NCBI GenBank assembly: GCA_020072805.1 | Contig: JAIQGC010000032.1 | Span: 1 to 64,000 of the forward strand | Source of the DNA: Terriglobia bacterium | Lineage (GTDB): Bacteria; Acidobacteriota; Terriglobia; Acidiferrales; UBA7541 | Direction: 5' to 3' | Length of the DNA: 64,000 bases | Shown here: piece by piece, positions 46,448-62,284 of the stretch | How positions within the stretch are numbered: the first letter of the stretch is position 1 | Layout of the letters: each line of letters begins with the position of its first letter | Program-made: the position numbers and the translations under genes | The notes under the pieces: model-generated | Told to the model about the DNA's origin: nothing | Seen by the model: only the letters and a program-made list of their open reading frames with translations | Database searches by the model: none

Positions 46448-46462
46448 GGGCGGGGTTGAAGA

Positions 46463-47305
46463 TTAGAAGCGGTAGTTGAATCCGATGCGGGCGATATTGG
46501 CGTGGAGGGTGGCGGTGTGGGTGAAGACGTTGGTGGGCCAGGGGAGGGTCGTGGCGGGAACGGTGGGGCGGATGACGGGAGTGGCCAGATTGGTGCTGGT
46601 GGCCGAGACAGAGCCGAATTTAGCGTAGAGGTATTCGGCTTTGACCGACAAACGGTCACCCATGCGATGCTCGATGCCGCCGCCGGCAACGAGGCCGGAA
46701 GCGGTCTTGGCAATGCCGCCATTTTCCGTGGCATAGATGGAAGAAACGAGGAGGTAATTGTCGGCAAAAGAGGCCTGATAGTTGAGGTGGGTGGCGGCGA
46801 GACCGGCGGTGGCGTAGACAAGAAGGCCTCCGGAAGCATAACCGATGCGGGGGCGGACGGTGAGAAGGCCGCCGGTTTTTACGGATTGATTGATGCGGAA
46901 GGAGTAGTTCAAGAGAGTGCAGCCGGGACAGGTGTAAGGGGCGGTGGCGGATACGGATTTATTGAAGCTGAGCTTGCCGAAATCGGCCTCGGCACCGACA
47001 ACGAGATGGCCGAGTTGGAGGTTGTAACCCGCTTGGCCGCCGGCGGAAAAAGCGCGCGGGGCGAGGTGCTGGGCGCCGACGGGGGCGATGTCGGTGACGC
47101 TGGAGGGGGCGAAATAGCCTCCGGCCGGGGCAATGGTGGTGGTGGCGACGTCGGAAGTGCCGAGGGCTTCGCCGAGGTTGAAGCCGAAATAGGAGCCCTT
47201 CCAATTTTTATCGGTCTTCTGCGCCAAGCCAGCGGGAGCGAGGGTCAAGAGGGCGGCAGCGAAGACGAGAGCCAGGGCACAAAACTTCACGAAGAATCCG
47301 TTCAT
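46463..47305 (-). CDS. Outer-membrane beta-barrel protein B
   Basis: From ATG at 47305 (AAGGAG upstream) the protein has 280 residues and is a paralog of the neighbouring barrel: signal LALVFAAALLTLAPAGLAQ, SYFGFNLGEALGTSDVATTT, GHLVVGAEADFGKL, LSVKAEYLYAKFGSVSATST and the C-terminal ANIARIGFNYRF all correspond. It differs by a longer external loop around TAPYTCPGCTLLNYSFRI and near VIRPTVPATTLPWPT. The frame extends to 47398 but lacks a signal there. Both paralogs keep a loop Cys pair, which may be a disulfide. The duplication includes the 3' hairpin. Confidence 0.85.
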   Translation of the reverse strand: MNGFFVKFCALALVFAAALLTLAPAGLAQKTDKNWKGSYFGFNLGEALGTSDVATTTIAPAGGYFAPSSVTDIAPVGAQHLAPRAFSAGGQAGYNLQLGHLVVGAEADFGKLSFNKSVSATAPYTCPGCTLLNYSFRINQSVKTGGLLTVRPRIGYASGGLLVYATAGLAATHLNYQASFADNYLLVSSIYATENGGIAKTASGLVAGGGIEHRMGDRLSVKAEYLYAKFGSVSATSTNLATPVIRPTVPATTLPWPTNVFTHTATLHANIARIGFNYRF

Positions 47306-47614
47306 CCAAATCTCCTTAACGGCGCGGGGTACAGGGTAAACAAATACGCAAACGGTGGTGGCCAGGGCGTTTTGGAAGATACCGCCGGCACCAATCATCG
47401 CAACCGCTGTGCCCTGCTGTCAATAATCCGGATGCAGTTCGGAAAGAAGATACGCAAGAACCGAGATTGGCTTCTTCCCTCGCGACGCGGCGGCCAAACG
47501 TGAAGTTGGATGGGCAGGGGGAAGGCGGAGTTGCCCGGCGGGGGAAAGAATGGGCGGATGAAGTACAGGCGGGCTGGAATCGGTGTGCTAGAATTTGCGA
47601 CGGAGGCTCCAGCC
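47306..47614. other. Intergenic region, divergent promoters expected
   Basis: These 309 bases separate the divergent barrel B and flavoprotein genes. I see no gene and no clear promoter pair. Confidence 0.5.
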
Positions 47615-49570
47615 ATGACGACGCCGAAAGATCGCGAGATTGGGATGTACGGAAATATAACGCGGCGGGATTTTTTGAACGGGATGGCGGTGACGGCGGG
47701 AGCGGCGCTGGTGCCGGGGGCGCTGGCGGGGGTGCTGGAGACGGAAGCGCAGGCGATGGATTCGAAAGGGGCCTATCCGCCGGGGCTGACGGGGATGCGA
47801 GGGGATCATGCGGGGTCGTTTGACGCGGCGCACAGCCTGCGGGACGGCACGTTTTGGGAAAAGGCGGGGGCGCCGCGGGAGACCGGCGAGCGCTACGACC
47901 TGGTGATCGTGGGCGCGGGGATCAGCGGGCTGGCCGCGGCGCATTATTACCGCAAGGCGGCCGGGGCGGGAGCGAAGATTCTGATCCTGGATAATCACGA
48001 TGATTTCGGAGGCCATGCCAAGCGCAACGAATTCAAGGACGGGAAATATTTTCGCCTGGGATTCGGGGGAACGTATTCGATCGAAAGTCCTGCGCCGTAC
48101 AGCAAAGTGGCCAAGGGGCTGGTGGAAGAGCTGGGGATCGACGTGCCGGGATATTCGAAAGTGCTTCACCCGGAGATTTACAGTTCGCGGGGGATGGGCA
48201 GCGGGGTGTTTTTTGACCGCGAGACGTTTGGAGCGGATTACTTGGCGCGGATGCACGATGGGCGCACAGGAGCGCACGGCGAGATGTTCGCGGCGATGAC
48301 CTCGGCGGAGTTTCAGAGGAACGCGCCGCTAACGGAGACGGTGAAGAAGGATCTGGCGCGCTTGCTGACGGAAAAGAAGGATTATTTGCCAGGGCTGACG
48401 TCGGCGGAGAAGAAGGCGCGGCTGGCGCGGATGAGTTACGCGGAGTTTCTGACGCGGGTGGCGGGAGTGGATGCGGGTGTGGTGAAGATTTTCCAGAAGC
48501 TGCCGCACGGGCTTTACGGATACGGGATCGACGCGGTTCCGGCGCAGGATGCGTGGGGATTCAGCTATCCGGGATTCGCGGGGATGAATCTGGACGAGGC
48601 GCCGGGCAAGGGGATGAACCGCGACTCGATTCCTAGCGAGGAGGCGGAGAAATACTTCTTTCATTTTCCGGACGGGAACGCGACCATCACGCGGCTGCTG
48701 GTGCGGCGGCTGATTCCAAGAGCGATACCGGGAACGACGCTGGAGGACGTGATTCGGGCGCGGGCGGAGTATGGGCGGCTGGACGAGGCGTCTTCGGCGG
48801 TGCGCATACGGCTGAACAGCACGGCGGTGAGGGTGAAGCATGTGGGCGAAGCGAGCGGAGCGAAGGAAGTGGAGGTGGCTTACGCGCGGGGTGGCAAGGT
48901 GGAAACGGTGCGCGGGGCCAACTGCATCCTGGCGTGCTGGCACGTGGTGATTCCGCACATCTGCGAGGAGTTGCCGGAGAAGCAGAAAGAGGCGATGTCC
49001 AGCGCGGCCAAGGTGCCGATTGTGTACACGAACGTGCTGCTGAAGAATTGGAAAGCGTTCGAAAAGGAGAAAATTTCCTCGGTGTACGCGCCGGGGGGAT
49101 ACTTCAGCAATTTCATGCTGGATCATCCGGTGAGCATGGGAGGTTACCAATGCGCGCAGACGCCGGAGGAGCCGATTGTGGTGCATATGATGAGGACGCC
49201 GTGCCGGCCGGGGCTGCCGAGCCGGCAGCAGCATGTGGCCGGGCGGATGGAGTTGTTCGTGACGGAGTTCGAGAAGTTTGAACGGGAGATTCGGGAGGAG
49301 CTGGGAAGATCGCTGGCGGGCGGAGGATTCGATGCGGCGCGGGACATTGCGGCAATTACGGTGAACCGCTGGCCGCACGGGTATGCGTATCAATACAATT
49401 CGATTTACGACGCGTTCTGGATGGACGGCGGGGAACTGCCGTGCGAAGTGGCGCGCAAGCCCTTCGGGCGGATCGCCATTGCCAATGCGGACGCGGACGC
49501 CTATGCCTATACGGATTGCGCGATTGACCAGGGCTATCGCGCGGTACAGGAATTGCGCTCGAGTAGCTAG
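47615..49570 (+). CDS. Tat-exported FAD oxidoreductase, spermidine dehydrogenase-like
   Basis: The 651-residue protein has a twin-arginine signal (ITRRDFLNGMAVTAGAALVP, about residues 15-34) and a Rossmann FAD site (YDLVIVGAGISGLAAAHYYR) with DNHDDFGGHAKRN as the second flavin contact. Segments EEAEKYFFHFPDGNATITRL and CILACWHVVIPHICEELP remind me of the SpdH spermidine dehydrogenase family, which is exported and binds heme b, but the substrate is not proven. A folded, cofactor-loaded protein explains the Tat signal. It ends 80 bases before the first multiheme gene, so its electrons might go to those cytochromes. Confidence 0.8.
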   Translation: MTTPKDREIGMYGNITRRDFLNGMAVTAGAALVPGALAGVLETEAQAMDSKGAYPPGLTGMRGDHAGSFDAAHSLRDGTFWEKAGAPRETGERYDLVIVGAGISGLAAAHYYRKAAGAGAKILILDNHDDFGGHAKRNEFKDGKYFRLGFGGTYSIESPAPYSKVAKGLVEELGIDVPGYSKVLHPEIYSSRGMGSGVFFDRETFGADYLARMHDGRTGAHGEMFAAMTSAEFQRNAPLTETVKKDLARLLTEKKDYLPGLTSAEKKARLARMSYAEFLTRVAGVDAGVVKIFQKLPHGLYGYGIDAVPAQDAWGFSYPGFAGMNLDEAPGKGMNRDSIPSEEAEKYFFHFPDGNATITRLLVRRLIPRAIPGTTLEDVIRARAEYGRLDEASSAVRIRLNSTAVRVKHVGEASGAKEVEVAYARGGKVETVRGANCILACWHVVIPHICEELPEKQKEAMSSAAKVPIVYTNVLLKNWKAFEKEKISSVYAPGGYFSNFMLDHPVSMGGYQCAQTPEEPIVVHMMRTPCRPGLPSRQQHVAGRMELFVTEFEKFEREIREELGRSLAGGGFDAARDIAAITVNRWPHGYAYQYNSIYDAFWMDGGELPCEVARKPFGRIAIANADADAYAYTDCAIDQGYRAVQELRSSS

Positions 49571-49650: not shown

Positions 49651-51603
49651 ATGGCGGGTGAGAAAGCGGGCGGGAAGAGAGTTTTCTGTCCATCGAGTGC
49701 GGCGGCGGCCTGTTTGGGCGCGCTGCTGTTTTTCTTTGCTGGCGCCGCGCGGGCGCAGATTTCTCCCGGTCCCCTTTCGAAAGCGCATCAATCGCTCAGT
49801 GGCGCGACGCAATGTTCGAGCTGCCATACCTTGCGCGCCGGCTCCCCGGAAATGAAGTGCCTGGATTGCCACACGGAGATCGCGCGACGGCTGCGGGAGC
49901 GCCGTGGTCTGCACGCGGCGCTGGTGCAGGGAGCCGAACCGGGGAAGGACTGCGCGCGGTGCCATTCCGAACATAATGGGGAAGAGTTTCAGATGATCCA
50001 CTGGGACGCGCCGGTGGCTTCGTTTGACCACCGCAAAACGGGGTATGCGCTGGAAGGGAAGCACGCGGGGATCGAATGCACGCGCTGCCATACGGCGGCG
50101 CATATTTCGCCGGAAGAGCGCAAGGAGATACGCATTAAGGATGTGTCGAAAAGCTGGCTGGGACTGACGCGGGAGTGCGCCACCTGCCACAAGGATGCGC
50201 ACAACGGAAGATTCGGCGGGGAATGCCAGAAGTGCCACACGTTCGCGGACTGGCAGGTGGGGACGCGGTTCGACCATTCGAAAACGCGGTTTGCGCTGAC
50301 GGGATTGCACGCACAGGTGAGCTGCGGAAAATGCCATTTGGCCGGAGCGGACGGCAAGCCCAAGTACGCGGGTGTGGCGTTCCAGTCGTGCGCGGACTGC
50401 CACAAGGACCCGCACCGCGGGGCATTTAAGCAGGAGTGCGGAAGCTGCCATACGGCTGCGGGATGGAAGACGGTGCGGATGGCGGAGACGTTCGACCATT
50501 CGAAAACGGCCTATCCGCTGGCGGGGAAGCACCTGGAAGTGGGCTGCGTGAAGTGCCACGCGGGAAGCGACTTCAAGAAAAAGATCGCGCACGAGAAATG
50601 CGCGGATTGCCACAAAACCGATGTGCATCGCGGGCAGTTCCGCGAGCGGGCGGATCGCGGGGAGTGCGGGGCATGCCACACGGTCAGCGGATTCAAGCCT
50701 TCCACATTTGATGGGAAGAGGCATGGAGAAACCAAGTATCCGCTGGAGGGAAAGCATGCGGAGCTGGCCTGCGGGAAATGCCACAAGGCGGAGGGCGCCG
50801 CGACGGTGTACAAGGTGAAATTCGCGCGCTGCCTGGATTGTCATGCGGACGCGCATCGCGGGCAATTTTCCGGCGCGCCGTATGCGGGCAAGTGCGAACG
50901 CTGCCATACGGTGGCGGGATTCCGTCCGGCGAAGTACTCGCTGGCGCAGCACGCGCAGTCGCGATTTCCGCTGGAGGAGGGACACGCGGCGACTCCCTGC
51001 AAGGACTGCCACAAGGAGGCGGAGATTGGCGGCGGGCGCGCGGTGCGCTACCGCTTCGAGGACCGCACGTGCACGGCGTGCCATAAGGATCCGCACAAGG
51101 GAAATTTCCGCGCGTGGATGGAGCGCAAACGCGAGGATGGCCAGCCGGCGGGCTGCCTGGCATGCCATTCGGTAAAGAGCTGGCGGGTGACCACGGGGTT
51201 CGATCACACGAAGACGAAATTTGCGCTGACGGGCGCGCATCGCGCGGTGAGTTGCGCGGGGTGCCACAACCCCTCATCGGAGAAGAAGCGGCCGGAGGAG
51301 ATTTCCTTCCAGGTGCCTTCGGCGGCCTGCGCGGAATGCCATGCGGATGCGCATGCGGGGCAGTTCGCGCGGGGAGGGAAGGCGGCGGACTGCGCGACGT
51401 GTCACACGACGGCGAAATGGCGGCCGTCCACATTTGATCACGAGCGCGGCGCGTCGTTTTCCCTGAAGGGGGCGCATGAGCGCGTGGCCTGTGCGGCTTG
51501 CCATCAGCTTACCCGTGAGGTGAATGGAAAGCTGGTGCTCTTCTTCAAGCCCACCACGAAAGTCTGCGGGGATTGCCACGGCAATCGACTGCTGCCCAAC
51601 TGA
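49651..51603 (+). CDS. Exported multiheme cytochrome c, about 23 hemes
   Basis: The 650-residue protein has a signal peptide (AAAACLGALLFFFAGAARAQ) and, by my count, 23 CXXCH heme c motifs, from CSSCH near residue 55 to CGDCH near 640, one per 27 residues. The protein is built from repeats with FDHSKTRFALTGLHAQVSCG, followed by a CXXCH-x-DxHxGxF segment and a third CXXCH before an aromatic residue, so heme wires of three per unit are likely. Extra His residues (LxGxH, DxHxG) could be the sixth ligands. It has no lipobox and no membrane helix after the signal. It should be periplasmic or surface exposed. Confidence 0.93.
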   Translation: MAGEKAGGKRVFCPSSAAAACLGALLFFFAGAARAQISPGPLSKAHQSLSGATQCSSCHTLRAGSPEMKCLDCHTEIARRLRERRGLHAALVQGAEPGKDCARCHSEHNGEEFQMIHWDAPVASFDHRKTGYALEGKHAGIECTRCHTAAHISPEERKEIRIKDVSKSWLGLTRECATCHKDAHNGRFGGECQKCHTFADWQVGTRFDHSKTRFALTGLHAQVSCGKCHLAGADGKPKYAGVAFQSCADCHKDPHRGAFKQECGSCHTAAGWKTVRMAETFDHSKTAYPLAGKHLEVGCVKCHAGSDFKKKIAHEKCADCHKTDVHRGQFRERADRGECGACHTVSGFKPSTFDGKRHGETKYPLEGKHAELACGKCHKAEGAATVYKVKFARCLDCHADAHRGQFSGAPYAGKCERCHTVAGFRPAKYSLAQHAQSRFPLEEGHAATPCKDCHKEAEIGGGRAVRYRFEDRTCTACHKDPHKGNFRAWMERKREDGQPAGCLACHSVKSWRVTTGFDHTKTKFALTGAHRAVSCAGCHNPSSEKKRPEEISFQVPSAACAECHADAHAGQFARGGKAADCATCHTTAKWRPSTFDHERGASFSLKGAHERVACAACHQLTREVNGKLVLFFKPTTKVCGDCHGNRLLPN

Positions 51604-51983
51604 AATTGGTGATTTGCAACGGGCAGAGAGCCAACAGGAAAAATCTACCCAAGGAAAGTAAAAGATATTCCGACCTGAAAGATTGCTATTTGGACAACAT
51701 TGGTCGCACATGGCTAAGTGCTTGATTTAATGGGGCTGGAAATACATTGGTACTACCGTATTACGCTAATTTGCGGGCAACTTATGGCTAGGCGATTGCA
51801 ACCAACCAACTAATCGAAATGGTGGTACTCAGGGCTGCAGGAAGTTCAGTTGGTGCGCAGGCTAAGTGAGCTGAACGAATACTGTTCTCCAGAGCAGTTA
51901 CGCGGGAGGGACAGGACGCGTAGCCTACATTGGGGGCAGTGTGGTTGTACTGCTGCGATTGAGGCGCGAGGTGCCCTGGTTTG
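51604..51983. other. Intergenic region between the two multiheme genes
   Basis: These 380 bases are noticeably AT-richer than the genes and hold no recognised gene. A promoter for the second cytochrome is likely here, but I cannot define it. There is no strong terminator for the first. Confidence 0.5.
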
Positions 51984-53864
51984 ATGAAGAGTCCACTTCT
52001 TTTACTGACAGCACTGGCATTTCTGACTTCCACGGCCGGAGCGCAAGCGCGGCCGGATGCGGCGCAGGCCGCCACGCGGAATCCGCACGGAGCGCTGACG
52101 GTGCCCTGCGACAGCTGCCACACCTTCACCAGTTGGAAACCGATCCGCAGCAAGCCTGATTTCGATCATGCGAAAACCAGATTTCCGCTGCGCGGGATGC
52201 ACGAGAGCGCCAAATGCGCACAGTGCCATGTGGTGGCGGAGTTCAAGAATGCCGGGTCGCGCTGCGCGGACTGCCATGCGGACCTGCACCGGGGGCAATT
52301 CGGAGGGCGTTGCGAGCAGTGCCATAGCGTGAAGGGCTGGACGTTGGTGAAATCCCTGCAACAGCATCAGAACCGGTTTCCGCTGCTAGGAGCCCACGCC
52401 ACGGTGGATTGCGAAAGCTGCCACAAGAATGGAGCTTCGGGGCAGTTCACGGGAATGCCCACGGACTGCATTTACTGCCACAGCAAGGAATACCAGAGCG
52501 TGCAAGATCCGGACCACCAGGCTCTGGCTTTCCCGTCCACCTGCCAGGACTGCCACACGGTGAACAGCTGGTTCGGAGCAAAATTTGATCATTTGCGATT
52601 TGCGCACTACGCGCTGACCGGAGCGCACGCGGCGCTGCCGTGCTCGGCATGCCATCCCGGGGGGCAGTACAAAGGGACGCAAGTGACCTGCTTCGCGTGC
52701 CATCAGAAGGATTACAATGCGACGAGCAGCCCAAACCACGCACAGGCCAGCTTTCCGACGGATTGCTCGCTCTGCCATTCGACGGCGACCTGGGCAGGTG
52801 CGACCTTCGACCACAACCAAACCCTATTCCCGCTGACCGGCGCGCACACCAGCGTGGCATGCGCGACGTGCCATGTGAATGGCGTGTACAAGGGGCTGAG
52901 CACGGCGTGCGTCAGCTGCCACCTGAGCAATTACAACGGAGCGGCGAATCCGAATCACGTGCAGAGCGGGTTTCCGCAAACGTGCGAGGTGTGCCACAGC
53001 ACGACGGCATGGCAGCCGGCGACCTTCGATCACAGCAAGACCATTTTCCCGCTCACCGGGGCACACACCAGCGTGGCGTGCACGACGTGCCACGTGAACG
53101 GCGTCTACAAGGGTCTGAGCACGGCGTGCTCTTCCTGCCATCTAAAGGATTACAACGGCACGAACAATCCGAACCACGCACAGGCGGGATTCCCGACGGA
53201 TTGTTCAATTTGCCATTCGACGGCCAGCTGGGCGGGGGCGACCTTCGACCACAACCAAACCCTATTCCCGCTGACCGGCGCGCACACCAGCGTGGCCTGC
53301 GCGACCTGCCACGTGAACGGCGTGTACAAAGGGCTGAGCACGAATCCGAATCACGTGCAGGGCGGGTTTCCAACAACCTGCGAGGTGTGCCACAGCACGA
53401 CGGCGTGGCAGCCTGCTTCGTTTGACCACAGCAAGACGGCGTTTCCGCTGACCGGGGCGCATACCAGCGTTCCGTGCACGAGCTGTAACATCAGTGGGGT
53501 ATATGCCGGGACGCCGACGGACTGTTATTCCTGCCACAAGGCGGCCTATCAGGGAACGACGGACCCCAATCACGTGGCCGCGGCGTTTCCAACGACCTGC
53601 CAGACCTGCCATACCACGACGTCGTGGCTGGGAGCGACGGTCAATCACACCTGGTTCCCGATTTATTCGGGTACGCACCTGGGAAAATGGACGACGTGCG
53701 CGGACTGCCATGTCAATTCGTCGAACTACGCGGTCTTCTCCTGCATCACCTGCCATACGCACGATCAAGCCACTGTGGACCCCAAACATTCCGGGGTCAG
53801 CGGGTACAGCTACTCGGCGACCAGTTGTTATACGTGCCATCCATCAGGGGTTGCGGGGAACTGA
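51984..53864 (+). CDS. Second exported multiheme cytochrome c, modular repeats
   Basis: From ATG 51984 the protein has 626 residues with a signal peptide (LLLLTALAFLTSTAGAQA). I count 23 CXXCH motifs plus one degenerate CTSCN (bases 53475-53489), where AAC replaces the heme His codon. The central part is an array of 73-residue modules (FDHNQTLFPLTGAHTSVACA, CHVNGVYKGLSTACVSCH, NPNHVQSGFPQTCEVCHS). One module lacks 14 residues including a heme motif. The N-terminal third is more like the first cytochrome (DLHRGQFGGRCEQCH). The stop overlaps the barrel gene start by one base (TGATG). It is likely the outer or periplasmic electron carrier of the cluster. Confidence 0.93.
   Translation: MKSPLLLLTALAFLTSTAGAQARPDAAQAATRNPHGALTVPCDSCHTFTSWKPIRSKPDFDHAKTRFPLRGMHESAKCAQCHVVAEFKNAGSRCADCHADLHRGQFGGRCEQCHSVKGWTLVKSLQQHQNRFPLLGAHATVDCESCHKNGASGQFTGMPTDCIYCHSKEYQSVQDPDHQALAFPSTCQDCHTVNSWFGAKFDHLRFAHYALTGAHAALPCSACHPGGQYKGTQVTCFACHQKDYNATSSPNHAQASFPTDCSLCHSTATWAGATFDHNQTLFPLTGAHTSVACATCHVNGVYKGLSTACVSCHLSNYNGAANPNHVQSGFPQTCEVCHSTTAWQPATFDHSKTIFPLTGAHTSVACTTCHVNGVYKGLSTACSSCHLKDYNGTNNPNHAQAGFPTDCSICHSTASWAGATFDHNQTLFPLTGAHTSVACATCHVNGVYKGLSTNPNHVQGGFPTTCEVCHSTTAWQPASFDHSKTAFPLTGAHTSVPCTSCNISGVYAGTPTDCYSCHKAAYQGTTDPNHVAAAFPTTCQTCHTTTSWLGATVNHTWFPIYSGTHLGKWTTCADCHVNSSNYAVFSCITCHTHDQATVDPKHSGVSGYSYSATSCYTCHPSGVAGN
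52731..53500 (+). repeat. 219-base tandem module array inside the cytochrome gene
   Basis: The conserved FDH codons start at 52806, 53025, 53244 and 53421, i.e. spacings of 219, 219 and 177 bases. The sequences around 52731-52905 and 53169-53343, 438 bases apart, are nearly identical. The last spacing is short by exactly 42 bases at 53343/53344, an in-frame loss of one heme motif. Confidence 0.9.
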
Positions 53865-55579
53865 TGAGGAAGAGAACGGCTGCGGGGGCGGCGCTCTGGC
53901 TGGGGTTGTTTCTGGGGGGAGCGTCCGCGCAGCAGAACGACAAGGCCTCGCCGGTGTTCCGCATAAAATACGTCGCCGAGGGCGTGGTGTATCTGAATGC
54001 GGGGCGCAACGCGGGGCTGACGGAGCACGAGGTATTGAAGGTGGTGCCGCCGGAGACGGCGGAGGGAGCCAGCCGCGGGGAGCAGTTGAGCGCCGGAGAA
54101 ATCGCCAGCATCGAGGTGATCTCGCTGGCGGATGCTTCGGCGGTGTGCGAGGTGCGTTCTTCGACGCGCGCGTTAGTGGCGGGCGATGTGGTGCTTATTC
54201 CGGGCGGGGCGGAGCGGGCGGCGCCGGCGCCGGAAGCGGCGGACGCGCCGAGGCCGTATTTGCAGGTGATTTCGTTCACGACAGACGAAGATCCTCTGGA
54301 TGAGGAGATTCGCGACGCCATGCCGCATCCGCCACTGCCGGAAGTGAACCGGATGCGCGGGCGGATTGGGCTGGAGTACAACGCGGTGATGGGCCGGGGA
54401 GTGGTGGGGACGACGAATCAGGACGTGGGGCTGGTGCTGCGGGGAAACGCGACGCGCATCGGCGGGAGCTATTGGAATTTTTCGGGGTACTGGCGGGGTC
54501 GGCTGACGCAGAGGTCGGGCACGCAGCCGCAGACGATTTCCGATCTGATCAACCGCACGTACCAGATCAGCATGACCTACAACAATCCGTACTCGCCGAT
54601 GGTGGCCGGCGTGGGCAGGATGTATCTGCCATGGGCCAGCAGCCTGGATGCGATTGACGGCGGCTATGCGGGAGTGCGCAAGACGAGCGGGTTGGTTACC
54701 GGGATCTTCGCGGGAACGACGCCGGACCCGGCGTCGTGGGACTACAATCCGGACCGGCGCATCGCGGGCGCGTTCGTGAATGTGGAGCGGGGAAAATTCG
54801 ACCGCACGCACTTCACGGGAACCACGGGAGTGGCGATAGCGGCGATCGGGTGGAAGGCGGAGCGACAATTTCTGTTTTCGGAAACGACGATGACGGTGCG
54901 GCGCAAGGTTTCCCTGTATCACTCGATGCAGGTGGACGCGCCGCACACCTATCAGGCGCCGAATCCATTGAATCCGGCGGCACCGCTGGTGGCGCAATAC
55001 GGGGGACTGAACCGCAGCTACGCTTCACTGCGCTTGCAACCGGTGCAGCGGCTGAGCTTCGACCTCAGTCACAGCTATTTTAGCAGCCCGCCGACGGTGA
55101 ATCCGGTGCTGATCGGCAGCGGGCTGCTGGACCGGTATCTGTTCCAGGGGCTGAGCGGAGGGGTGCGGGCGGAAGTGCTGAAGCAGGTGACGCTGTACAC
55201 CAGCCTGGGCCGCAACAGCCGGAGCGGCGATACGGGCGCGTCGTGGAATCAGTTGTACGGAATCACCTTCGGGAATGTGCTGCGGACGGGATGGCGGACG
55301 GACCTGCGCTATACAAAATTCGACAGCGTCTTCGGGCAGGGAGAATACGAAGCGCTGTCCATATCCAAGCAGGTGCGGGAGTCGTTGCGACTGGAATTGC
55401 AGGGCGGGTTGCAGAGGCTGAATTCGCCGGTGAACGGGATGTCCAATTCGCATTTTGCGATTTCACAGGTGGAATGGTCGCCGGGGCGGCATCTTTTTAT
55501 GCAGAGCTCGTTCACCTGGCAGCGCGGGGGAATGATGAATTATGACCAAGTGTCGTTCGTGGTCGGGGAGCGCTTCTGA
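53864..55579 (+). CDS. Outer-membrane beta-barrel protein of the cytochrome cluster
   Basis: The 571-residue protein has a signal peptide (ALWLGLFLGGASAQ), an N-terminal beta-rich domain of about 110 residues (VVYLNAGRNAGLTEHEVLKV, DASAVCEVRSSTRALVAGDV) like FlgT-type domains, an acidic linker, and then about 400 residues of alternating strands (GNATRIGGSYWNFSGYWRGR, RIAGAFVNVERGKFDRTHFT, RLSFDLSHSYFSSPP) ending in QVSFVVGERF with the terminal Phe typical of barrels. Its one-base overlap with the cytochrome gene points to a common complex, analogous to the porin of porin-cytochrome conduits, though I cannot align it to MtrB. It has no heme motif. Confidence 0.8.
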   Translation: MRKRTAAGAALWLGLFLGGASAQQNDKASPVFRIKYVAEGVVYLNAGRNAGLTEHEVLKVVPPETAEGASRGEQLSAGEIASIEVISLADASAVCEVRSSTRALVAGDVVLIPGGAERAAPAPEAADAPRPYLQVISFTTDEDPLDEEIRDAMPHPPLPEVNRMRGRIGLEYNAVMGRGVVGTTNQDVGLVLRGNATRIGGSYWNFSGYWRGRLTQRSGTQPQTISDLINRTYQISMTYNNPYSPMVAGVGRMYLPWASSLDAIDGGYAGVRKTSGLVTGIFAGTTPDPASWDYNPDRRIAGAFVNVERGKFDRTHFTGTTGVAIAAIGWKAERQFLFSETTMTVRRKVSLYHSMQVDAPHTYQAPNPLNPAAPLVAQYGGLNRSYASLRLQPVQRLSFDLSHSYFSSPPTVNPVLIGSGLLDRYLFQGLSGGVRAEVLKQVTLYTSLGRNSRSGDTGASWNQLYGITFGNVLRTGWRTDLRYTKFDSVFGQGEYEALSISKQVRESLRLELQGGLQRLNSPVNGMSNSHFAISQVEWSPGRHLFMQSSFTWQRGGMMNYDQVSFVVGERF

Positions 55580-56400
55580 TGGGCGCGAGGAATTGGCTGC
55601 GGGCGATGTCGGCCGGAGGGCTGCTAGCGGCGTGGCTGCTGGCTGCGGGCGCGCGGGCGCAGACTCCGCCGCAGGCCGTGGAGAACGCGAAGCCTGATGC
55701 GGCGGTGGCGGAACTGGTGCGGCGGGCGGGAGTTGCCGCGGAGGAATTGACGGCGCATCTGGCCATGGTGCGGTATCAGGAGCACATTTCGCAGTACAAG
55801 ATCCGCGGCAATAACAAAGTGGAATACGAGCAGGAGGCATTTTACGATTCGCTGCTGCTGGTGCACGACAAGAACGGGCGGATGAGCGCGGAGGAGATGC
55901 TGGAGGAGGAGAAAGCTCCGGGGCGGTTCGAGCAGAGGCCGCTGCTGATGACGCGGGGATTTTCGACGATGGCCCTGATTGTGCATCCGTACTATGCGCG
56001 GAGCTTCCGGTTTGTGCAGGAAGAGGAGGAAGTCGCGGAAGGGCGGCAGCTGGTGCGGCTGCATTTTGAGCATATCAAGGGCGAGGATTCGCCGACGGTG
56101 CTGCGGCTGCGCGGGCGGAATTACGCGCTGGGAATGGCTGGAACGGTGTGGATCGACGCGGAGAGCGGAGCGGTGGCGCGGATTCGCGGGGAACTCTCCG
56201 AGCCGATGGAGGACATCGGACTGCACCGGCTGAATTGCGAAGTGCGCTATGCGCTGGTGGAGCTGGAGAAATCCGGGGATAAATACTGGCTGCCGGTGGT
56301 GGCGAATGTTGACTTGGAGACGCCCAAGCAGCACTGGCGCAACGTGCATGAATTCGCCAAATACAGGCGGTATGCGGTGAAGGTGAAGCTGGGGTCGTAA
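55579..56400 (+). CDS. Exported protein of unknown function in cytochrome cluster
   Basis: The 273-residue protein overlaps the barrel gene by one base (TGATG). It has a signal peptide (LLAAWLLAAGARAQTPP) and a soluble domain starting with a helix (AELVRRAGVAAEELTAHLAM). The beta-rich part (GTVWIDAESGAVARIRGELS, YWLPVVANVDLETPKQHWRN) recalls LolA/RseB-like folds that bind lipids or protein in the periplasm. I do not recognise the exact family. No Cys or heme motifs are seen. It could help barrel assembly or be a periplasmic clamp of the complex. Confidence 0.7.
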   Translation: MGARNWLRAMSAGGLLAAWLLAAGARAQTPPQAVENAKPDAAVAELVRRAGVAAEELTAHLAMVRYQEHISQYKIRGNNKVEYEQEAFYDSLLLVHDKNGRMSAEEMLEEEKAPGRFEQRPLLMTRGFSTMALIVHPYYARSFRFVQEEEEVAEGRQLVRLHFEHIKGEDSPTVLRLRGRNYALGMAGTVWIDAESGAVARIRGELSEPMEDIGLHRLNCEVRYALVELEKSGDKYWLPVVANVDLETPKQHWRNVHEFAKYRRYAVKVKLGS

Positions 56401-56492
56401 GGGTGTGTATTGTTGAAGCAATTTGGGCGGGGATGCCGCCGGGGATTCGCGGTAAGCGCATACCATAGAAAGAAGGGGATGGAGAGACCGTC

Positions 56493-57437
56493 GTGAGCAC
56501 GCTGACCACAGCCGCCGCAATTCCACAGAGCCGCCGCAGCGCCGCGGAAGTGTTTCATGCGCTGGCGCTGTGGGTGTGCGCACTGGGCGGGATGGGACTG
56601 ACGCTGGCGCTGACGGTGTACGGGTTCGGCTACTACACGCTGGGGCAGGCGCAGCGGGTCTATTCCCCGAAGCATATTCTGCTGAAGCCGAGCGGGGTGC
56701 TGGGGATCCGGCTGGGATTTCTGGGGCTGGCGTTTTTTCTGCTGCTGTTTCTTTACGCGATTCGCAAGAGCATGAAGAGTCTTTCGCGGATCGGGAATTC
56801 GCGGCGCTGGCTTAATTTTCACGTGATCCTGGGAATCATGGCGCCGGTGGTGATCACGTTCCATTCGTCGTTCAAATTCCGCGGGCTGGCGGGAATCGCC
56901 TACTGGATCATGATTGCGGTGGCGGTGAGCGGTGTCGTGGGGCGCTATATTTACGCGCAAATCCCGCGCAGCATTGGAGCAGCGGAGCTTTCGAAGAAAG
57001 AGTTGCGTGAGCAGAGCGAGCACCTGGCCGATAAGCTGAAATCGCAGGAGGTGCTGGCGCCCGGGGATTTTGCGGGCTTGTTGCGGCTGCCGGCGGCGGG
57101 CCAAGTCGAGTCCATGTCCGCGCTGACGGTGCTGGGCTACATGATGCGCTATGACGTGACGCGCTTCTGGCAGATCGCCGGGCTGCGGCGGAAGGCGCTG
57201 CGCTCGTTCCGGGGAAGGGCCTCGCTGTGGGGCATGGTGCGTTCGCATCACGCGCAGGTGGAAAGCGTGATTGACTGCCTGAAGGAAGAGGCGTTTCTGG
57301 AGAAGAAGATTCTGTTTCTCTCGAAGGCGCAGGAAATGTTCCAGCTGTGGCATGTGGTGCACCGGCCGTTCAGTTATTCGTTCGTGGTGCTGGCGGGAAT
57401 TCATATCGTGGTGGCGCTGCTGTTTGGCTATTTCTAA
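56493..57437 (+). CDS. Membrane cytochrome b-like protein
   Basis: The 314-residue protein starts at GTG 56493 and has five likely membrane helices: about 20-48, 68-90, 107-130 (LNFHVILGIMAPVVITFHSS), 135-155 and 290-312. Two His are spaced across the third helix and others are in LWHVVHRPFSYSF and AGIHIVVALLF, the spacing expected for b-type hemes as in cytochrome b561 or ferric-reductase-like proteins. Between helices 4 and 5 is a soluble segment of about 130 residues, unlike classic cytochrome b561. It probably links quinol or the next gene's product to periplasmic hemes. It ends 12 bases before that gene. Confidence 0.75.
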   Translation: MSTLTTAAAIPQSRRSAAEVFHALALWVCALGGMGLTLALTVYGFGYYTLGQAQRVYSPKHILLKPSGVLGIRLGFLGLAFFLLLFLYAIRKSMKSLSRIGNSRRWLNFHVILGIMAPVVITFHSSFKFRGLAGIAYWIMIAVAVSGVVGRYIYAQIPRSIGAAELSKKELREQSEHLADKLKSQEVLAPGDFAGLLRLPAAGQVESMSALTVLGYMMRYDVTRFWQIAGLRRKALRSFRGRASLWGMVRSHHAQVESVIDCLKEEAFLEKKILFLSKAQEMFQLWHVVHRPFSYSFVVLAGIHIVVALLFGYF

Positions 57438-57449
57438 GGAGGCGTGAAC

Positions 57450-58943
57450 ATGGAAACATTTCTAACCGTGTTGTTCGCCTCGGCGGTGACTTTTCTTTTC
57501 GTGCGCGGCTACCTGAAAAAGCTGACGGGAGCGAAGAAAGCGGCGCGGCCGGCGCCTGTTGCGGCGCCTGTTGCGGCGAGCTTCGCGGGAACGGGGAAGA
57601 TGCGGCCATGTCCGCGGTGCGCCAAGCCGATCGGGGAAGCGTCCGCGTTTTGTTCGCATTGCGGGGCGGCGCTGGCCATGTGGAGCGTGCACCGCGCGGC
57701 GGTCAACACGCCGGTGGCGGGCGCGGCGAAAGGGAAGCCCAAGCCGGTGATTAACGCGTCGTTGTGCATCGGGTGCGGCTCCTGCATCGAGGCCTGTCCG
57801 GAGACGGGCGCGCTGGAAATGGCCGGAGGCAAGGCGATTTTGAGCCATCCCGAGCGGTGCACGGGACACGCCAAATGCGCGGAGGTCTGCCCCACGCAGG
57901 GAATTCTCTATTCCTACGACGGAGCGCTGCAGACGGTGCGCGTGCCGATGGTCAAGGACAATTTCGAGACGAATGTGGCGGGACTGTTCATTGTCGGCGA
58001 ACTGGGCGGAATGGGGCTGATCAAGACGGCGGTGAACGAGGGCAAACTGGTGATGGACCACGTGAAGAAGCGCGTGGGAAGGGCGGAGCCCGCGGCGGCG
58101 GAGGGAAGCGATCCGGAGACGCTGCGCGACGTGCTGATTGTGGGCGCGGGGCCGGCGGGATTGAGCGCGGCGCTGACGGCGCACCAGTACGGGCTGGACT
58201 ACGTGGCCATCGAGCAGGGAGAGATCGCTTCGACGATCCGGCATTATCCGCGGCACAAGTTTCTGATGGCGGAGCCGCTGCAGATTCCGCTCTACGGGCC
58301 GCTGTACGTGAGCGACGGAACGAAAGAGGCGCTGCTGGCTGTTTGGGAGACGATCGTTTCCAATACGGGCGTGCGGGTGCGGACCAACGAGCGGGTGGAA
58401 AACGTGAAGCGCGACGGCAGCGGTTTCGTGGTGGCCACCTCGAAAGGAAATTACCGCGCGAAGAACGTGATCCTGGCGCTGGGGCGGAGGGGAACGCCGC
58501 GCATGCTGGGCGTGCCGGGAGAGGAATTGGGCAAGGTGGCGTATTCGCTGATCGAAGCGGAGAGTTATGCGGGTAAGAAGATTCTGGTCGTGGGAGGCGG
58601 AGATTCGGCGCTGGAAGCGGCCGTGGGGCTGAGCAAGCACAAGCGCAATCAGGTGACGCTGTCCTACCGCGGGGGAAGTTTTGAGCGGGCGCGGGAGCGC
58701 AACCGGAAATTTATTGCAGAGGCGGAAGCGCAGGGGCTGCTGACGGTGCGGAGAAATTCGCAGGTGAAAGAGATCCGGGCCGACGCGGTGGTGCTGGAAG
58801 CGGCGGGGCAGGCGATGGAAGTGCCCAATGATTACGTGTTTGCGCTGATCGGAGGAGTTTCGCCGGAAGAATTTTTGCAGAAGACGGGCGTGGAAATCGT
58901 GGAAAAGGCGCTGGCGATGGCCGGAGAACCGGCATTCAGCTGA
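57450..58943 (+). CDS. Membrane-anchored zinc-ribbon/ferredoxin/FAD reductase fusion
   Basis: The 497-residue protein starts at ATG 57450, seven bases after AAGGAGG; a GTG at 57444 is too close to that site. Parts in order: a membrane helix (FLTVLFASAVTFLFVRGYL), a zinc ribbon (CPRCAKPIGEASAFCSHCG, about 54-72), a 2[4Fe-4S] ferredoxin (CIGCGSCIEACP and CTGHAKCAEVCP), and a thioredoxin-reductase-like FAD/NAD(P) domain (VLIVGAGPAGLSAALTAHQY, then VVGGGDSALEAAVGL). There is no CXXC redox pair in the FAD part, so it is a ferredoxin-NAD(P) type reductase rather than a disulfide reductase. It could pass NAD(P)H electrons to the neighbouring cytochrome b. Confidence 0.87.
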   Translation: METFLTVLFASAVTFLFVRGYLKKLTGAKKAARPAPVAAPVAASFAGTGKMRPCPRCAKPIGEASAFCSHCGAALAMWSVHRAAVNTPVAGAAKGKPKPVINASLCIGCGSCIEACPETGALEMAGGKAILSHPERCTGHAKCAEVCPTQGILYSYDGALQTVRVPMVKDNFETNVAGLFIVGELGGMGLIKTAVNEGKLVMDHVKKRVGRAEPAAAEGSDPETLRDVLIVGAGPAGLSAALTAHQYGLDYVAIEQGEIASTIRHYPRHKFLMAEPLQIPLYGPLYVSDGTKEALLAVWETIVSNTGVRVRTNERVENVKRDGSGFVVATSKGNYRAKNVILALGRRGTPRMLGVPGEELGKVAYSLIEAESYAGKKILVVGGGDSALEAAVGLSKHKRNQVTLSYRGGSFERARERNRKFIAEAEAQGLLTVRRNSQVKEIRADAVVLEAAGQAMEVPNDYVFALIGGVSPEEFLQKTGVEIVEKALAMAGEPAFS

Positions 58944-59158: not shown

Positions 59159-59587
59159 CTACCAGGTGTTGTAAGGGGTGTTTTCGACGGAGGAAACGAG
59201 GGGAGAGTTGGAATGGACGTCGGTGAGGCCGGTGGAGTTTTGGTCGGCGCTGAGGAGGACGTCCTCGAACTTGAGCTGCCAGTCGCGTTGCTGGGTGATG
59301 GGGTCCACGGGAATTTCGCGCAGATATCCGGCGCTGACCAGGTCCTCGAGCGATTGCGGGGCGGCCTGCTTGTCCACGGTGTATTGCTCGATGGCCTGGC
59401 GCATGGTTTTCAGGTCGGACTTGAGCGTGGCTTCCTGGGCGCGCCGCACCGAGCGGTCATAGCGGCCGGCGGCGATGCCCACGAGGATGGCGATGATGGC
59501 GAGAACGACCATCATCTCGAGCAGGGTGAAGCCCGCGGCGGAGCGCAAGGCCCGGCGGGGAATTGGCGAAGTTTTACCAGTCAGCAT
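59159..59587 (-). CDS. gspG: GspG-like type II pseudopilin
   Basis: The 142-residue protein has a short basic leader, the prepilin peptidase motif GFTLLEMM with Glu at +5, a hydrophobic helix (MVVLAIIAILVGIAAGRY), and the GspG-type C-terminal core (SDLKTMRQAIEQYTVDKQ, SAGYLREIPVDPITQQRDWQ). Pseudopilins form a short periplasmic fibre in secretion. The start ATG 59587 overlaps the upstream pseudopilin gene by 14 bases; an ATG at 59599 is possible. It is the last gene of the secretin-pseudopilin set. Confidence 0.87.
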   Translation of the reverse strand: MLTGKTSPIPRRALRSAAGFTLLEMMVVLAIIAILVGIAAGRYDRSVRRAQEATLKSDLKTMRQAIEQYTVDKQAAPQSLEDLVSAGYLREIPVDPITQQRDWQLKFEDVLLSADQNSTGLTDVHSNSPLVSSVENTPYNTW

Positions 59588-60059
59588 AACGCGTCCCATC
59601 GAGCGCCGTTCCGGTGGCTCTGGAATAGACATCAAAAACGTTTTTGCCGCCCCAGGAGCGGGAATCGGGGTCGTCCTGGACGGCGCGGAGTCCCCATTCA
59701 GCGCTGCCAGTCATGGGGTCGACGGGAATCTGGCGAAGGAAGCGGACCTTGCGGTCGGCGGTGGCGCCGAGTTGAACGCCGCGAACCAGGGTTTCCAGGT
59801 CCGGGGGATAGCCTTCACTGCCGACTTCGACGCGAATGAGGTTGCGGTCGGCGGCGTCCTTGTAACGGTCGATGGCATCGCGGATTTCGCGGAGGTCGCG
59901 GCGCAGTTCAAGCTCGCGCTGGCGGACGATATTGTGGCGGGCGATGGGCACGGCGGCGGCGGAGAGAACGAGGAGAATCGAGCAGGCGATGATGAGTTCG
60001 AGCAGGGTCAGCCCCGCCTGGGAAGGAGTGCGCCGGACATTGCGATGCGGGCGTGGCAT
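59574..60059 (-). CDS. Second type II/IV pseudopilin
   Basis: The 161-residue protein has the prepilin motif AGLTLLELII (cleavage after Gly, Glu at +5) and a hydrophobic helix (LIIACSILLVLSAAAVPIAR). The core (LRRDLREIRDAIDRYKDAAD, FLRQIPVDPMTGSAEWGLRA) is like GspG, with a longer loop at DDPDSRSWGGKNVFDVYSRA. It is separated by 17 bases from the secretin gene upstream. With the GspG-like gene it suggests a small dedicated secretion or pilus system; ATPase and platform genes are not in this window. Confidence 0.84.
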   Translation of the reverse strand: MPRPHRNVRRTPSQAGLTLLELIIACSILLVLSAAAVPIARHNIVRQRELELRRDLREIRDAIDRYKDAADRNLIRVEVGSEGYPPDLETLVRGVQLGATADRKVRFLRQIPVDPMTGSAEWGLRAVQDDPDSRSWGGKNVFDVYSRATGTALDGTRYADW

Positions 60060-60076
60060 AGCGCTATTAATTAAGA

Positions 60077-62284
60077 TTACCGGACAACTTGAATCGTTGC
60101 CTCGCCGGTCAGCAGCGGGATGGTGGCCTGCTGGGAGTTCTTGGCGTTGACCTGAACGATGGAAAGCGAAGAGGAGCCGGGAGCGAGGGCGCGGATGACG
60201 ATGCCCATAAGCGTGCCGGAGCCGCTCACGCCAGCCGTATTGGGCTGACGCGTGGCGGAGATGATGGCCTGGCCGCGTTCCTTATCCACGCGCTGGACGA
60301 TGGCGATCTCCTGGGTGCCGCCGGAGAGGAAGCCGCCGTGGCGAACCTCCTCAACGCTGATGATGGCGGGATTGTACTGGAGCAGCATGGGAATGGAAAA
60401 GAGGTCCTGGACGTTGTCCACGACGACGCCCAGAGTGACGGTATCGCCGGGCTTGAGATTCTGGAGCTGCGGGTCAAAGTGCAGGCGCGGCCCCTGTGCG
60501 GCGGCGGGAGGAGGCTGGGGAACCGCGGGAGCGGGAACGGCGGAGGAAGGAGGAGGAGCGGGTTGGGGGAGTTCCTCGCGGCGGACCTGGATATTGGCAT
60601 CGGAGCCGGAACTGAGGGAACGGAGATTGTCGGGGGTGAGCGTGGGCAGGCGCACGATGCGGGGTATGAGCACAATGAGGACTTCGTTCTCCTGGTGATC
60701 GGTGGTCTGTTCGGAGAAGAGATAGTGAAGGAGGGGCAGTTTGGCGAGGCCGGGCCAGCCTTTGAGGGTTTTGCTGTCCACGCGCTCGATGAGGCCACCG
60801 AGGATATTGACTTCGCCTTCCTTCAGCCGGATTTCGTGGTCAATTTTGCGCTGGCTGATGATGGGCTGCTGGATGCCGCCGATGGTGCTGCTGCCGGTGA
60901 CGGAAGAGACTTCGATCTGGATTTTGAGGCTGACTTCACGGTTGGGATGGACGCGCGGAGTGACGTCCACATTGACGCCGACGTCCTGGTACTGAAATTG
61001 GGTGTTGACCAGCGGGTTGACGCCGCCGGTGCCGCCGATGCCCACGCCGGCCTGGAAGCTGCCGGTGGCCACGGGGATGCGGTCGCCGATGCGCAGCTTG
61101 GCGGGCTGGCCGTCCACGGAGCGGATTTCCGGGTTCTGAATGATTTTGGTGTTGTTGTCGGAGAGGATGGCCGTGGCGGTAGCGCCGGGCATGGCCAGGC
61201 TGTAGTCGCCGGAGGTGAGTTTCTTCAACTGGTTGATGGGCAGGGAAGAACTGCCGCTAGTGGCAGTGGGTGCGACGCCGCCGGGAGTGAAGGTTAACGT
61301 GGTGCTCTGTCCGGGGAGGATGCCGAGGTCGCGGAGGCGATCGATGCGGGCCTGGAGGACTTCCACCTGGATGACCACTTCGGGTTTGGCCTTGTCGATA
61401 TCGTTGATGAGTTTTTCGGCGAGGAGCAGCTTGTCCGGGGTGTCGCGAATGATGATGGCGTTCTGGGAATTGACCTGCTGGATGCGCTTGAGGTCGAGAA
61501 GCTGGCGGAGGCCCGTTACGACTTCGGTGAGGTCCTGGGGCTGCGTGACGTTGGAGAGGTAGAAGGTGCGGACCATCTGCTCTTCGTAGTCGCGGCGCTT
61601 CTGGGCCTGGTCGGAGACGACGAAGATGATGGAGGGCGTGACGGGCTTCCAGAAGGATTTGCTTTGCAGGGAGACGATATCGAGGGCCTGATCGAGGGTG
61701 ACATTATTGATTTCGGTGGTGATGCGCTTGCTCTGGAAATCAGGATCGAAGACGGCGGTGAGGCCGGCCATTTTGGCGATGGTTTCAAAGATGATGCGAG
61801 ACTCATTAACCATTTTCAAATTGATGGGATTGCGGGAAAGGGGCATGAGTTGGGGAGGACCTTCGGCGAGGGGTGCTTCGGCGGGCTTGGCGGGAGCGGC
61901 CGAGGGAGCGGGTTCCTCGTGCTTTCCATTGATGAGGTCGAGAGTGGCTTGCAGCTCCTGCGCGGCGATGGGGCTGGAGGGGTCGAGGTCCAGGGCCTTC
62001 TGGAATTCGGCGAGGGCGCGGGGCAGGTCGCCCTTTTCGCGCAAGAGCTGGCCTTGATGAACGTGAAACTGGCCGGCTTCGAAGCGGATTTGGTTGGCGT
62101 GGATCTTGTAGTTGGCGTTGAAAGGGTCTGCTTTCAGGGCTTTCTGGTAGTGCAGCAGAGCGCTATCGTAATCGCGCAGGGCTTCGGCGGAGCGTCCCTG
62201 TTTGTACTCGCCGCCACCTTTGGGGCAGCCAGCGGCGAACAGGGCGCAAGTCAGGGTAAGCAGGACAGCCTTGCAGCGGCTCAT
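60077..62284 (-). CDS. Lipoprotein secretin with TPR and cohesin-like domains
   Basis: From ATG 62284 (GGAGAG upstream) the protein has 735 residues. It has a lipoprotein signal (LTLTCALFAAGC), TPR helices (about 30-130: LLHYQKALKADPFNANYKIH, LAEFQKALDLDPSSPIAAQE), secretin N domains (about 175-330), the secretin core (VGVNVDVTPRVHPNREVSLK, ILGGLIERVDSKTLKGWPGL, about 340-560), a Pro-rich linker, and a C-terminal cohesin-like beta domain (LKPGDTVTLGVVVDNVQDLF). Secretins form the outer-membrane gate of type II and IV systems. Cohesin-like fusion is unusual and could bind the surface or a client protein. Confidence 0.88.
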   Translation of the reverse strand: MSRCKAVLLTLTCALFAAGCPKGGGEYKQGRSAEALRDYDSALLHYQKALKADPFNANYKIHANQIRFEAGQFHVHQGQLLREKGDLPRALAEFQKALDLDPSSPIAAQELQATLDLINGKHEEPAPSAAPAKPAEAPLAEGPPQLMPLSRNPINLKMVNESRIIFETIAKMAGLTAVFDPDFQSKRITTEINNVTLDQALDIVSLQSKSFWKPVTPSIIFVVSDQAQKRRDYEEQMVRTFYLSNVTQPQDLTEVVTGLRQLLDLKRIQQVNSQNAIIIRDTPDKLLLAEKLINDIDKAKPEVVIQVEVLQARIDRLRDLGILPGQSTTLTFTPGGVAPTATSGSSSLPINQLKKLTSGDYSLAMPGATATAILSDNNTKIIQNPEIRSVDGQPAKLRIGDRIPVATGSFQAGVGIGGTGGVNPLVNTQFQYQDVGVNVDVTPRVHPNREVSLKIQIEVSSVTGSSTIGGIQQPIISQRKIDHEIRLKEGEVNILGGLIERVDSKTLKGWPGLAKLPLLHYLFSEQTTDHQENEVLIVLIPRIVRLPTLTPDNLRSLSSGSDANIQVRREELPQPAPPPSSAVPAPAVPQPPPAAAQGPRLHFDPQLQNLKPGDTVTLGVVVDNVQDLFSIPMLLQYNPAIISVEEVRHGGFLSGGTQEIAIVQRVDKERGQAIISATRQPNTAGVSGSGTLMGIVIRALAPGSSSLSIVQVNAKNSQQATIPLLTGEATIQVVR

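Follow-up and report, generated by a model that had tools for sequence, protein, structure and literature searches.

Six co-directional genes were identified on the + strand of contig JAIQGC010000032.1 of a soil acidobacterium (Terriglobia bacterium). They occupy positions 49651-58943 of the 64-kb window, which is the whole stretch of DNA analyzed, and they lie side by side as reported in a preliminary description of this DNA. The following features were assigned.

49651..51603, + strand: MHC1, exported 23-heme cytochrome and proposed periplasmic wire (650 aa, 23 CXXCH, Cytochrome_C7 repeats)
51984..53864, + strand: MHC2, exported 23-heme cytochrome with triheme repeats, T/S/A-rich, proposed extracellular wire (626 aa, 23 CXXCH)
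52800..53342, + strand: tandem repeat within MHC2, unit 219 bp = 73 aa = three hemes (Tandem Repeats Finder, CXXCH spacing)
53864..55579, + strand: outer-membrane beta barrel, 22 predicted strands (571 aa; AlphaFold2 model, co-conservation)
55579..56400, + strand: exported protein of the LolA/RseB/DUF1329 superfold, possible assembly factor (273 aa; AlphaFold2, Foldseek)
56493..57437, + strand: IMP, five-helix membrane protein, proposed transmembrane diheme b (314 aa; two HX13H pairs)
57444..58943, + strand: membrane-anchored zinc-ribbon / 2x4Fe-4S / FAD-NAD(P) (YpdA/TrxR-like) reductase (499 aa; Pfam Pyr_redox_3 + Fer4)

The genes encoding MHC2, the barrel and the LolA-like protein are joined by one-base overlaps at positions 53864 and 55579, the overlaps between three genes mentioned earlier. 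Because gaps of 380 bp (between MHC1 and MHC2) and 92 bp (upstream of the IMP gene) are present, a single transcript for all six genes is only putative. When all six frames of the window were considered, 46 of 48 CXXCH motifs fell within MHC1 and MHC2, which together with the conserved homologs rules out chance motifs or a frame artefact; a chance origin is further excluded by the exact gene order kept across a class. This six-gene order recurs across Terriglobia in 39 of 95 distinct loci, and many of the remaining loci are interrupted by contig ends. Separation of the genes in other genomes had been named as an argument against a conduit, and the same order was found in other Terriglobia genomes. 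The set was present in 41 of the 396 sampled Acidobacteriota genomes (37 of 211 genera), and most of its parts also occur in a different arrangement in KSB1, Ignavibacteriae, Neomarinimicrobiota and Bacteroidota. Occallatibacter savannae and Emticicia oligotrophica are among the carriers in culture. None of the best 80 loci obtained by a scan of genome contigs was proteobacterial, the one titled Bordetella being acidobacterial.

Both cytochromes carry export signals, which argues against the cytoplasmic-side location previously raised as an objection, and each contains exactly 23 CXXCH motifs where about 23 had been counted, a number far beyond chance. MHC1 has 28.3 aa per heme; among 41 distinct copies from Terriglobia, 38 have exactly 23 hemes. 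No solved structural relatives of MHC1 were found. MHC2 has 27.2 aa per heme and, besides the 23 motifs, one decayed CTSCN. The repeat of MHC2 shows a CXXCH spacing of 32-16-25, and the protein contains 11.8% T, 8.8% S, 11.3% A and 7.2% G. The homologs of MHC2 carry 15-79 hemes and grow in triheme, 73-aa steps, providing a natural series for the effect of wire length. An inner cytochrome that is constant at 23 hemes, combined with an outer one that extends by triheme units, is new; from these sequences, a set span inside and a free span outside are proposed.

The barrel was modeled by AlphaFold2 with moderate confidence (pLDDT 73) and is predicted to have 22 strands and a small N-terminal beta domain, with the plug absent, in line with the outer-membrane barrel first described. 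Its structural matches are generic: 22-strand receptor barrels were recovered with Z about 17, and OprD-type barrels are equal in Z. An ordinary TonB receptor was rejected because no plug is predicted and, given the tie with OprD-type barrels, receptor likeness is no evidence of kinship. No curated Pfam match was found for the barrel, and no MtrB-type structures occur among the structural matches listed for it. An ordinary transporter had been considered as a reading that would weaken the conduit; the barrel is predicted to be plug-less and its matches are generic, so the fold alone is compatible with a transporter.

The AlphaFold2 model of the LolA-like protein has a pLDDT of 87. Its Foldseek matches are LolA3, the LolA superfamily, DUF1329 and RseB (E 2.9e-6 to 1e-3 across most of the chain, probability 0.96-1.00, TM-scores only 0.2-0.5), and the original label of LolA/RseB-like is borne out by the fold. 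In these loci the gene has been seen in Acidobacteriota only, and its product probably aids assembly of the outer-membrane part.

The IMP contains five hydrophobic segments and the residues W106-H110-H124, S146G147xxG150 and W286-H290-H304. The pairs H110/H124 and H290/H304 agree with its description as a cytochrome b-like membrane protein. The complete motif set (both HX13H pairs and SGxxG) is present in 92 of 95 distinct homologs; no solved structural relatives of the IMP profile were found. A ferric reductase-type membrane domain was matched below the Pfam threshold (17.8 vs 28 bits).

The last gene encodes the membrane-anchored ferredoxin/FAD reductase noted before, with Pfam matches to Pyr_redox_3 and Fer4. 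In every one of the 67 resolved homologs, the position of the second ligand in the second Fe-S motif is occupied by His. Identity with the YpdA bacillithiol disulfide reductase was rejected (TIGR04018, 180 bits vs a cut-off of 339.9; the anchor, the zinc ribbon and the Fe-S domain are additional), and the substrate could be another one, as for YpdA relatives. A homologous reductase lies near the IMP gene in 92 of 107 loci. In other acidobacterial lineages the same slot is filled by a non-homologous FAD_binding_6/NAD_binding_1/Fer2 reductase, and a reductase of either type adjoins the IMP gene in 97 of the 107 loci. The remaining 10 loci, three of them with full flanks, have no nearby reductase, so the enzyme is not obligatory; some are Bryobacterales, and a strong homolog was found elsewhere in two of the five such genomes examined. 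A near-constant reductase gene that is swapped elsewhere for an unrelated one with equivalent chemistry is a new feature of the set. The preliminary description had left the choice between NAD(P)H and quinol undecided; the exchange for a non-homologous FAD/NAD/2Fe-2S enzyme favors NAD(P)H as the electron source, and it suggests a testable electron source and direction for PCC3-type wires.

The set had been considered distinct from the described conduits, a view that comparison with PCC3 does not support. PCC3, named in 2017 and linked mainly to Fe(II) oxidation, is a predicted porin-cytochrome conduit of Proteobacteria represented by Slit_0867-0870 and Slit_1446-1449 of Sideroxydans lithotrophicus ES-1 (He et al. 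2017, PMC5566968). Its signature consists of a barrel, two very heme-rich cytochromes and an IMP of ~300 aa with SGXXG and two WX3HX13H motifs; the cytochromes have 22-39 residues per heme, the outer one being repetitive and T/S/A/G-rich, and the porins have many strands, up to 42 predicted (PMC5566968). A porin (22 strands in a moderate-confidence model), two heme-rich exported cytochromes and an IMP are all encoded here. The IMP has 314 aa, five helices and conserved SGXXG and WX3HX13H motifs, both cytochromes fall within the published range of residues per heme, and MHC2 is repetitive and T/S/A/G-rich; the outer heme count is variable and the inner one steadier, as in PCC3. The locus is thus PCC3-like by gene content, motifs and published description, and common descent with the Slit loci is putative. 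Heme count, barrel and reductase had all been said to differ from known conduits; the reductase is a real addition, whereas the other core parts fit PCC3. Further differences are that a LolA-fold gene also belongs to the set and that the host is an acidobacterium. Searches of plasmids for proteobacterial PCC3 loci yielded none, the matches being 7-heme trios. The PCC3 kind is new in Acidobacteriota: a literature search found no paper joining PCC3 with Acidobacteria, and the acidobacterial conduits described earlier, from Holophaga, belong to the MtrB and ExtB/E types (PMC7399161). The finding points to a wide distribution of such wires in this dominant soil phylum.

Several other systems resemble the locus in part. 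PCC4 and the MHC-IMP-redox trios (He et al. 2017) combine a flavo/Fe-S redox protein with a diheme-b IMP and a multiheme cytochrome, as here, and the Pyr_redox/Fer4 protein of a PCC4-like Sphingobium plasmid locus is 30% identical to the reductase over 289 residues. However, PCC4 has periplasmic cytochromes of 4, 5 and 10 hemes and no extracellular one, and the trios are without a porin; PCC4 membership is ruled out by the heme counts of 23 + 23. The MtrCAB and MtoAB systems likewise place a barrel between a multiheme cytochrome in the periplasm and a cytochrome outside, but have 10 hemes rather than 23, and the present set is without a NapC/CymA-type quinol dehydrogenase. The barrel has no MtrB_PioB (PF11854) match, whereas a second, true MtrAB-type conduit elsewhere in the same genome, serving as positive control, was matched at 4.7e-85. 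A decaheme MtrA/DmsE cytochrome was also rejected, since 23 hemes are present and the NCBIfam model TIGR03508 gave 61.1 bits vs a cut-off of 192.2. Ferric reductases and NADPH oxidases also have two HX13H pairs (TM3, TM5), b hemes and a pyridine-nucleotide flavoenzyme feeding them; here the chains are separate, an Fe-S relay is present, and the output would pass to a multiheme c-type wire.

A trans-envelope electron conduit, as first suggested, is still the best reading of the sequence, supported by joint conservation, export signals, the retained HX13H pairs and SGxxG of the IMP, the fixed MHC1 and quantised MHC2, and the 22-strand barrel. A conduit built like PCC3 and equipped with a cytoplasmic enzyme of its own for electron entry, with flow most likely outward, is considered somewhat probable. 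The membrane-tethered reductase would oxidize NAD(P)H (or ferredoxin) and pass the electrons via FAD and 4Fe-4S clusters to the IMP, whose two b hemes would form a stack through the inner membrane, the arrangement of ferric reductases and NADPH oxidases. The b hemes may then reduce MHC1, the fixed-length periplasmic wire, which would form a complex with the barrel and deliver electrons through it to the repeated triheme units of the extracellular MHC2 and on to an acceptor that may be a mineral, humic material or a cell. This reading is supported by the gene order kept exactly across Terriglobia, with core parts across phyla, by the frequent and exchangeable reductase beside the IMP, a pairing that also occurs with 7-heme cytochromes on plasmids, and by the genome itself, which encodes two heme-copper oxidases, the second conduit and no RuBisCO. 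Against it stand the reductase-free loci, the published PCC3 model, which leads inward to the quinone pool, the moderate confidence and generic matches of the barrel, and the possibility of another substrate for the reductase. More tentatively, and at somewhat less than an even chance, the system may be a self-contained oxidoreductase that passes electrons from NAD(P)H to extracellular acceptors independently of quinones. In it, a NOX-like inner-membrane module (exchangeable flavo-Fe-S reductase and diheme b) would directly feed the fixed 23-heme wire across the periplasm and an outer triheme wire of adjustable length; such systems would be common in soil acidobacteria and would occur in other phyla as well.

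The same conduit might run inward: electrons from an external donor, Fe(II), Mn(II) or some other, would reach the b hemes and the quinone pool, and the reductase would form a side branch or reduce NAD(P)+. PCC3 is found in Fe(II) oxidizers and modeled in this direction (PMC5566968), in Sideroxydans CL21 an inner-membrane component belonging to one of the PCC3 copies increases with iron oxidation (PMC12442390), and the host oxidases could terminate such a chain. This direction is nevertheless unlikely, since the PCC3 genes of ES-1 go down on Fe(II) (PMC8788666), the genome is without RuBisCO, electron transfer from Fe(II) to NAD(P)+ is uphill without a coupling machine, and the exchange of one pyridine-nucleotide reductase for another is not readily explained with the quinone pool as the only partner.

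A reversible or quinol-linked conduit, in which the IMP is a quinol dehydrogenase that the reductase merely tunes or primes, would suit the Bryobacterales loci without any nearby reductase and the published comparison of the PCC3 IMP with quinone-active cytochromes b (PMC5566968), but it is improbable given a reductase in nine of ten loci and a NapC-like quinol route already adjoining the MtrAB-type cluster of this genome. Electron storage or detoxification within the periplasm, with the barrel an unrelated transporter and no electrons crossing the outer membrane, is very improbable despite the transporters among the barrel matches and the porin-free reductase-IMP-cytochrome trios close to copper-resistance genes, because the barrel gene shares one base with MHC2 and holds the same position throughout a class and in other phyla, and because a periplasm of fixed width would hardly account for an MHC2 that varies in length by triheme units.

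The six-gene set claimed in the preliminary description was recovered in full on the forward strand (49651-58943), with every gene found as described. The genes encode two multiheme cytochromes, MHC1 (49651-51603) and MHC2 (51984-53864), an outer-membrane barrel, a LolA-like protein, an inner-membrane protein (IMP, 56493-57437) and a reductase (57444-58943). MHC1 and MHC2 each have an export signal at the N-terminus and exactly 23 CXXCH motifs; of the 48 such motifs across the six reading frames of the window, 46 lie in this pair of genes. The barrel start (ATG 53864) shares one base with the MHC2 stop, and the barrel end (55579) likewise shares one base with the LolA-like start. Because MHC1 and MHC2 are separated by 380 bp, the set may have two promoters. 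The set is real and conserved, and is best described from its sequence as a predicted conduit of the PCC3 type in Acidobacteriota, equipped with its own NAD(P)H-type entry enzyme.

PCC3, a predicted porin-cytochrome conduit of Proteobacteria, was published as a four-gene set with cytochromes of 22-39 residues per heme and an inner-membrane protein of about 300 residues. This protein has an SGXXG motif, two WX3HX13H motifs and five helices, and is proposed to bind two b hemes (He et al. 2017, PMC5566968). Barrel strand number aside, the window set agrees with PCC3 in all features tested; PCC3 porins are predicted to have up to 42 strands, and the 22 strands of the moderate-confidence barrel model speak neither for nor against PCC3. 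A reductase and a LolA-like gene are additional to the published four genes. MHC1 and MHC2 have 28.3 and 27.2 residues per heme, respectively, within the PCC3 range; both carry Cytochrome_C7/c3 repeats (Pfam), and T, S and A are abundant in MHC2. The IMP has five hydrophobic segments and the motifs W106-x3-H110-x13-H124, S146-G147-x2-G150 and W286-x3-H290-x13-H304. Ten homologs keep all four histidines and the SGxxG residues without exception, and the complete motif set occurs in 92 of 95 distinct homologs. The barrel, LolA-like protein and IMP gave no Pfam matches above the curated cut-off. The barrel model (pLDDT 73) shows 22 strands across residues 163-570 and a small N-terminal beta domain, lacks a plug and matches generic barrels, and the LolA-like model (pLDDT 87) matches structures of the LolA superfamily, DUF1329 and RseB. 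Judged on features and not on descent from the proteobacterial type loci, the set would operate as PCC3 does and probably belongs to that kind. PCC3 is already known but uncharacterised; the acidobacterial set with its dedicated entry enzyme is a new variation on it.

The set was found in two genomes of the same genus (approximately 56-78% identity per protein) and in other genomes of the family and class (approximately 33-63%). IMP relatives were collected by scanning one genome per species, the best 80 of 233 being retained. The exact order MHC1-MHC2-barrel-LolA-IMP-reductase occurs in 39 of 95 distinct loci, most of the others being interrupted by contig ends, and in 31 of the 49 loci with long flanks. 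In KSB1, Ignavibacteriae, Neomarinimicrobiota, Marinamargulisbacteria and a plasmid of Emticicia oligotrophica, the IMP, a reductase and MHC1 are encoded side by side but arranged differently, and MHC2 and a barrel are also present where the contig extends far enough. Identity between the Emticicia and window proteins is 35% for MHC1, 43% for MHC2 and 39% for the reductase. The LolA-like gene is limited to Acidobacteriota among the loci examined and is absent from some of these. A strong IMP match was detected in 41 of 396 genomes sampled across the phylum, a patchy spread as for an accessory respiratory trait. The acidobacterial cluster also occurs in a public record (CALQCC020000017.1; MAG HRS-HS12-bin-180) whose title, Bordetella parapertussis, looks like a mislabel.

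In the reductase, Pfam identifies a Pyr_redox_3 FAD/NAD(P) module and a pair of 4Fe-4S motifs. Histidine replaces the second cysteine of the second Fe-S motif in 67/67 resolved homologs, which may tune its potential. By the positive-inside rule, the reductase domains and the 145-residue TM4-TM5 loop of the IMP would be cytoplasmic. In 92 of 107 loci (not deduplicated), a gene for a flavo-iron-sulfur reductase is found no more than 6 kb from the IMP. In other acidobacterial lineages, the IMP neighbour at four loci (L127, L148, L151, L152) is a membrane-anchored FAD_binding_6/NAD_binding_1/Fer2-type protein; three of these were scanned and shared no Pfam family with the window reductase. A fifth locus (L147) matches the profile of this reductase type. 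That one pyridine-nucleotide reductase appears to have been swapped for a non-homologous one at this position is the best evidence obtained on what would feed the b hemes. Ten loci, seven with short flanks, have neither reductase type near the IMP, and a strong reductase homolog was found elsewhere in two of five such genomes tested; these ten loci count against a strict reductase requirement.

In Bacteroidota and in Alpha-, Beta- and Gammaproteobacteria, plasmids carry gene trios (L131-L137) in which a short IMP relative and a 7-heme cytochrome are preceded by a flavo-iron-sulfur oxidoreductase with a 2Fe-2S or FAD/NAD(P)-binding annotation. Copper-resistance genes often adjoin, and no obvious porin was seen in the trios.

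The two proposed wires vary differently in length. The heme number of MHC1, the proposed periplasmic wire, is exactly 23 in 38 of 41 distinct Terriglobia copies; copies from elsewhere have 20-24. MHC2, the proposed extracellular wire, ranges from 15 to 79 hemes and is built of a 73-residue, three-heme unit (CXXCH spacing 32-16-25), also seen in the DNA as a 219-bp tandem repeat. A 3n+1 heme number was found in 38 of 46 acidobacterial copies (nominal P = 2.5e-11, overstated because the copies are related) and in 42 of 55 in a wider deduplicated set. The window MHC2 departs from this rule (23 = 25 minus 2): one motif has decayed to CTSCN, and a short in-frame deletion has removed another, replacing the spacings 16+25 with 27. 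An inner wire of constant length and an outer one that grows in discrete steps would suit a periplasm whose width is given and an exterior without such a limit.

The set is flanked by the following genes:
45388-47398, reverse strand, two small proteins of 262 and 311 aa, adjacent paralogs with similar sequences that resemble outer-membrane beta barrels
47510-49570, forward strand, directly upstream of the set, Tat-signal flavoprotein closely related to spermidine dehydrogenase SpdH (PDB 7d9i, E 6.5e-146)
59159-62350, reverse strand, convergent and downstream of the set, resembling a type II secretion or pilus system: a secretin carrying TPR and cohesin domains, and two pseudopilin-like proteins

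The SpdH-like flavoprotein occupies the same place in just two other genomes of the genus, where it could feed electrons to the periplasmic wire.

NAD(P)H has a lower potential than the usual outside acceptors, which makes outward flow downhill, and an input of energy would be required for Fe(II) to reduce NAD(P)+ in the inward direction. The window's own genome encodes two heme-copper oxidases and a separate MtrA-MtrB-NapC-like cluster, and RuBisCO was not found in it. In Sideroxydans ES-1, PCC3 gene levels drop on Fe(II) (PMC8788666). Outward electron flow is therefore favoured with moderate confidence.

Cytochrome clusters other than the six-gene set were observed. The MtrA-MtrB-NapC-like cluster of the same genome, a second conduit of MtrAB type (L048; contig C89, approximately 31-45 kb), includes a 10-heme cytochrome and an MtrB_PioB barrel (PF11854, 4.7e-85), together with 9-heme, NapC-like 5-heme and 13-heme cytochromes and a fusion of a 19-heme cytochrome with a b561-like domain. 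A third cluster of this genome (L049; contig C103, approximately 5-13 kb) contains cytochromes with 11, 4 and 7 hemes, a probable barrel and two proteins with NHL repeats, and is reminiscent of the Uet set (PMC10734462). A different cluster found in many relatives (L045, L046 and L047) encodes large redox proteins, a 10-heme cytochrome and a divergent IMP homolog (22-24% identical), in the same order in three genomes.
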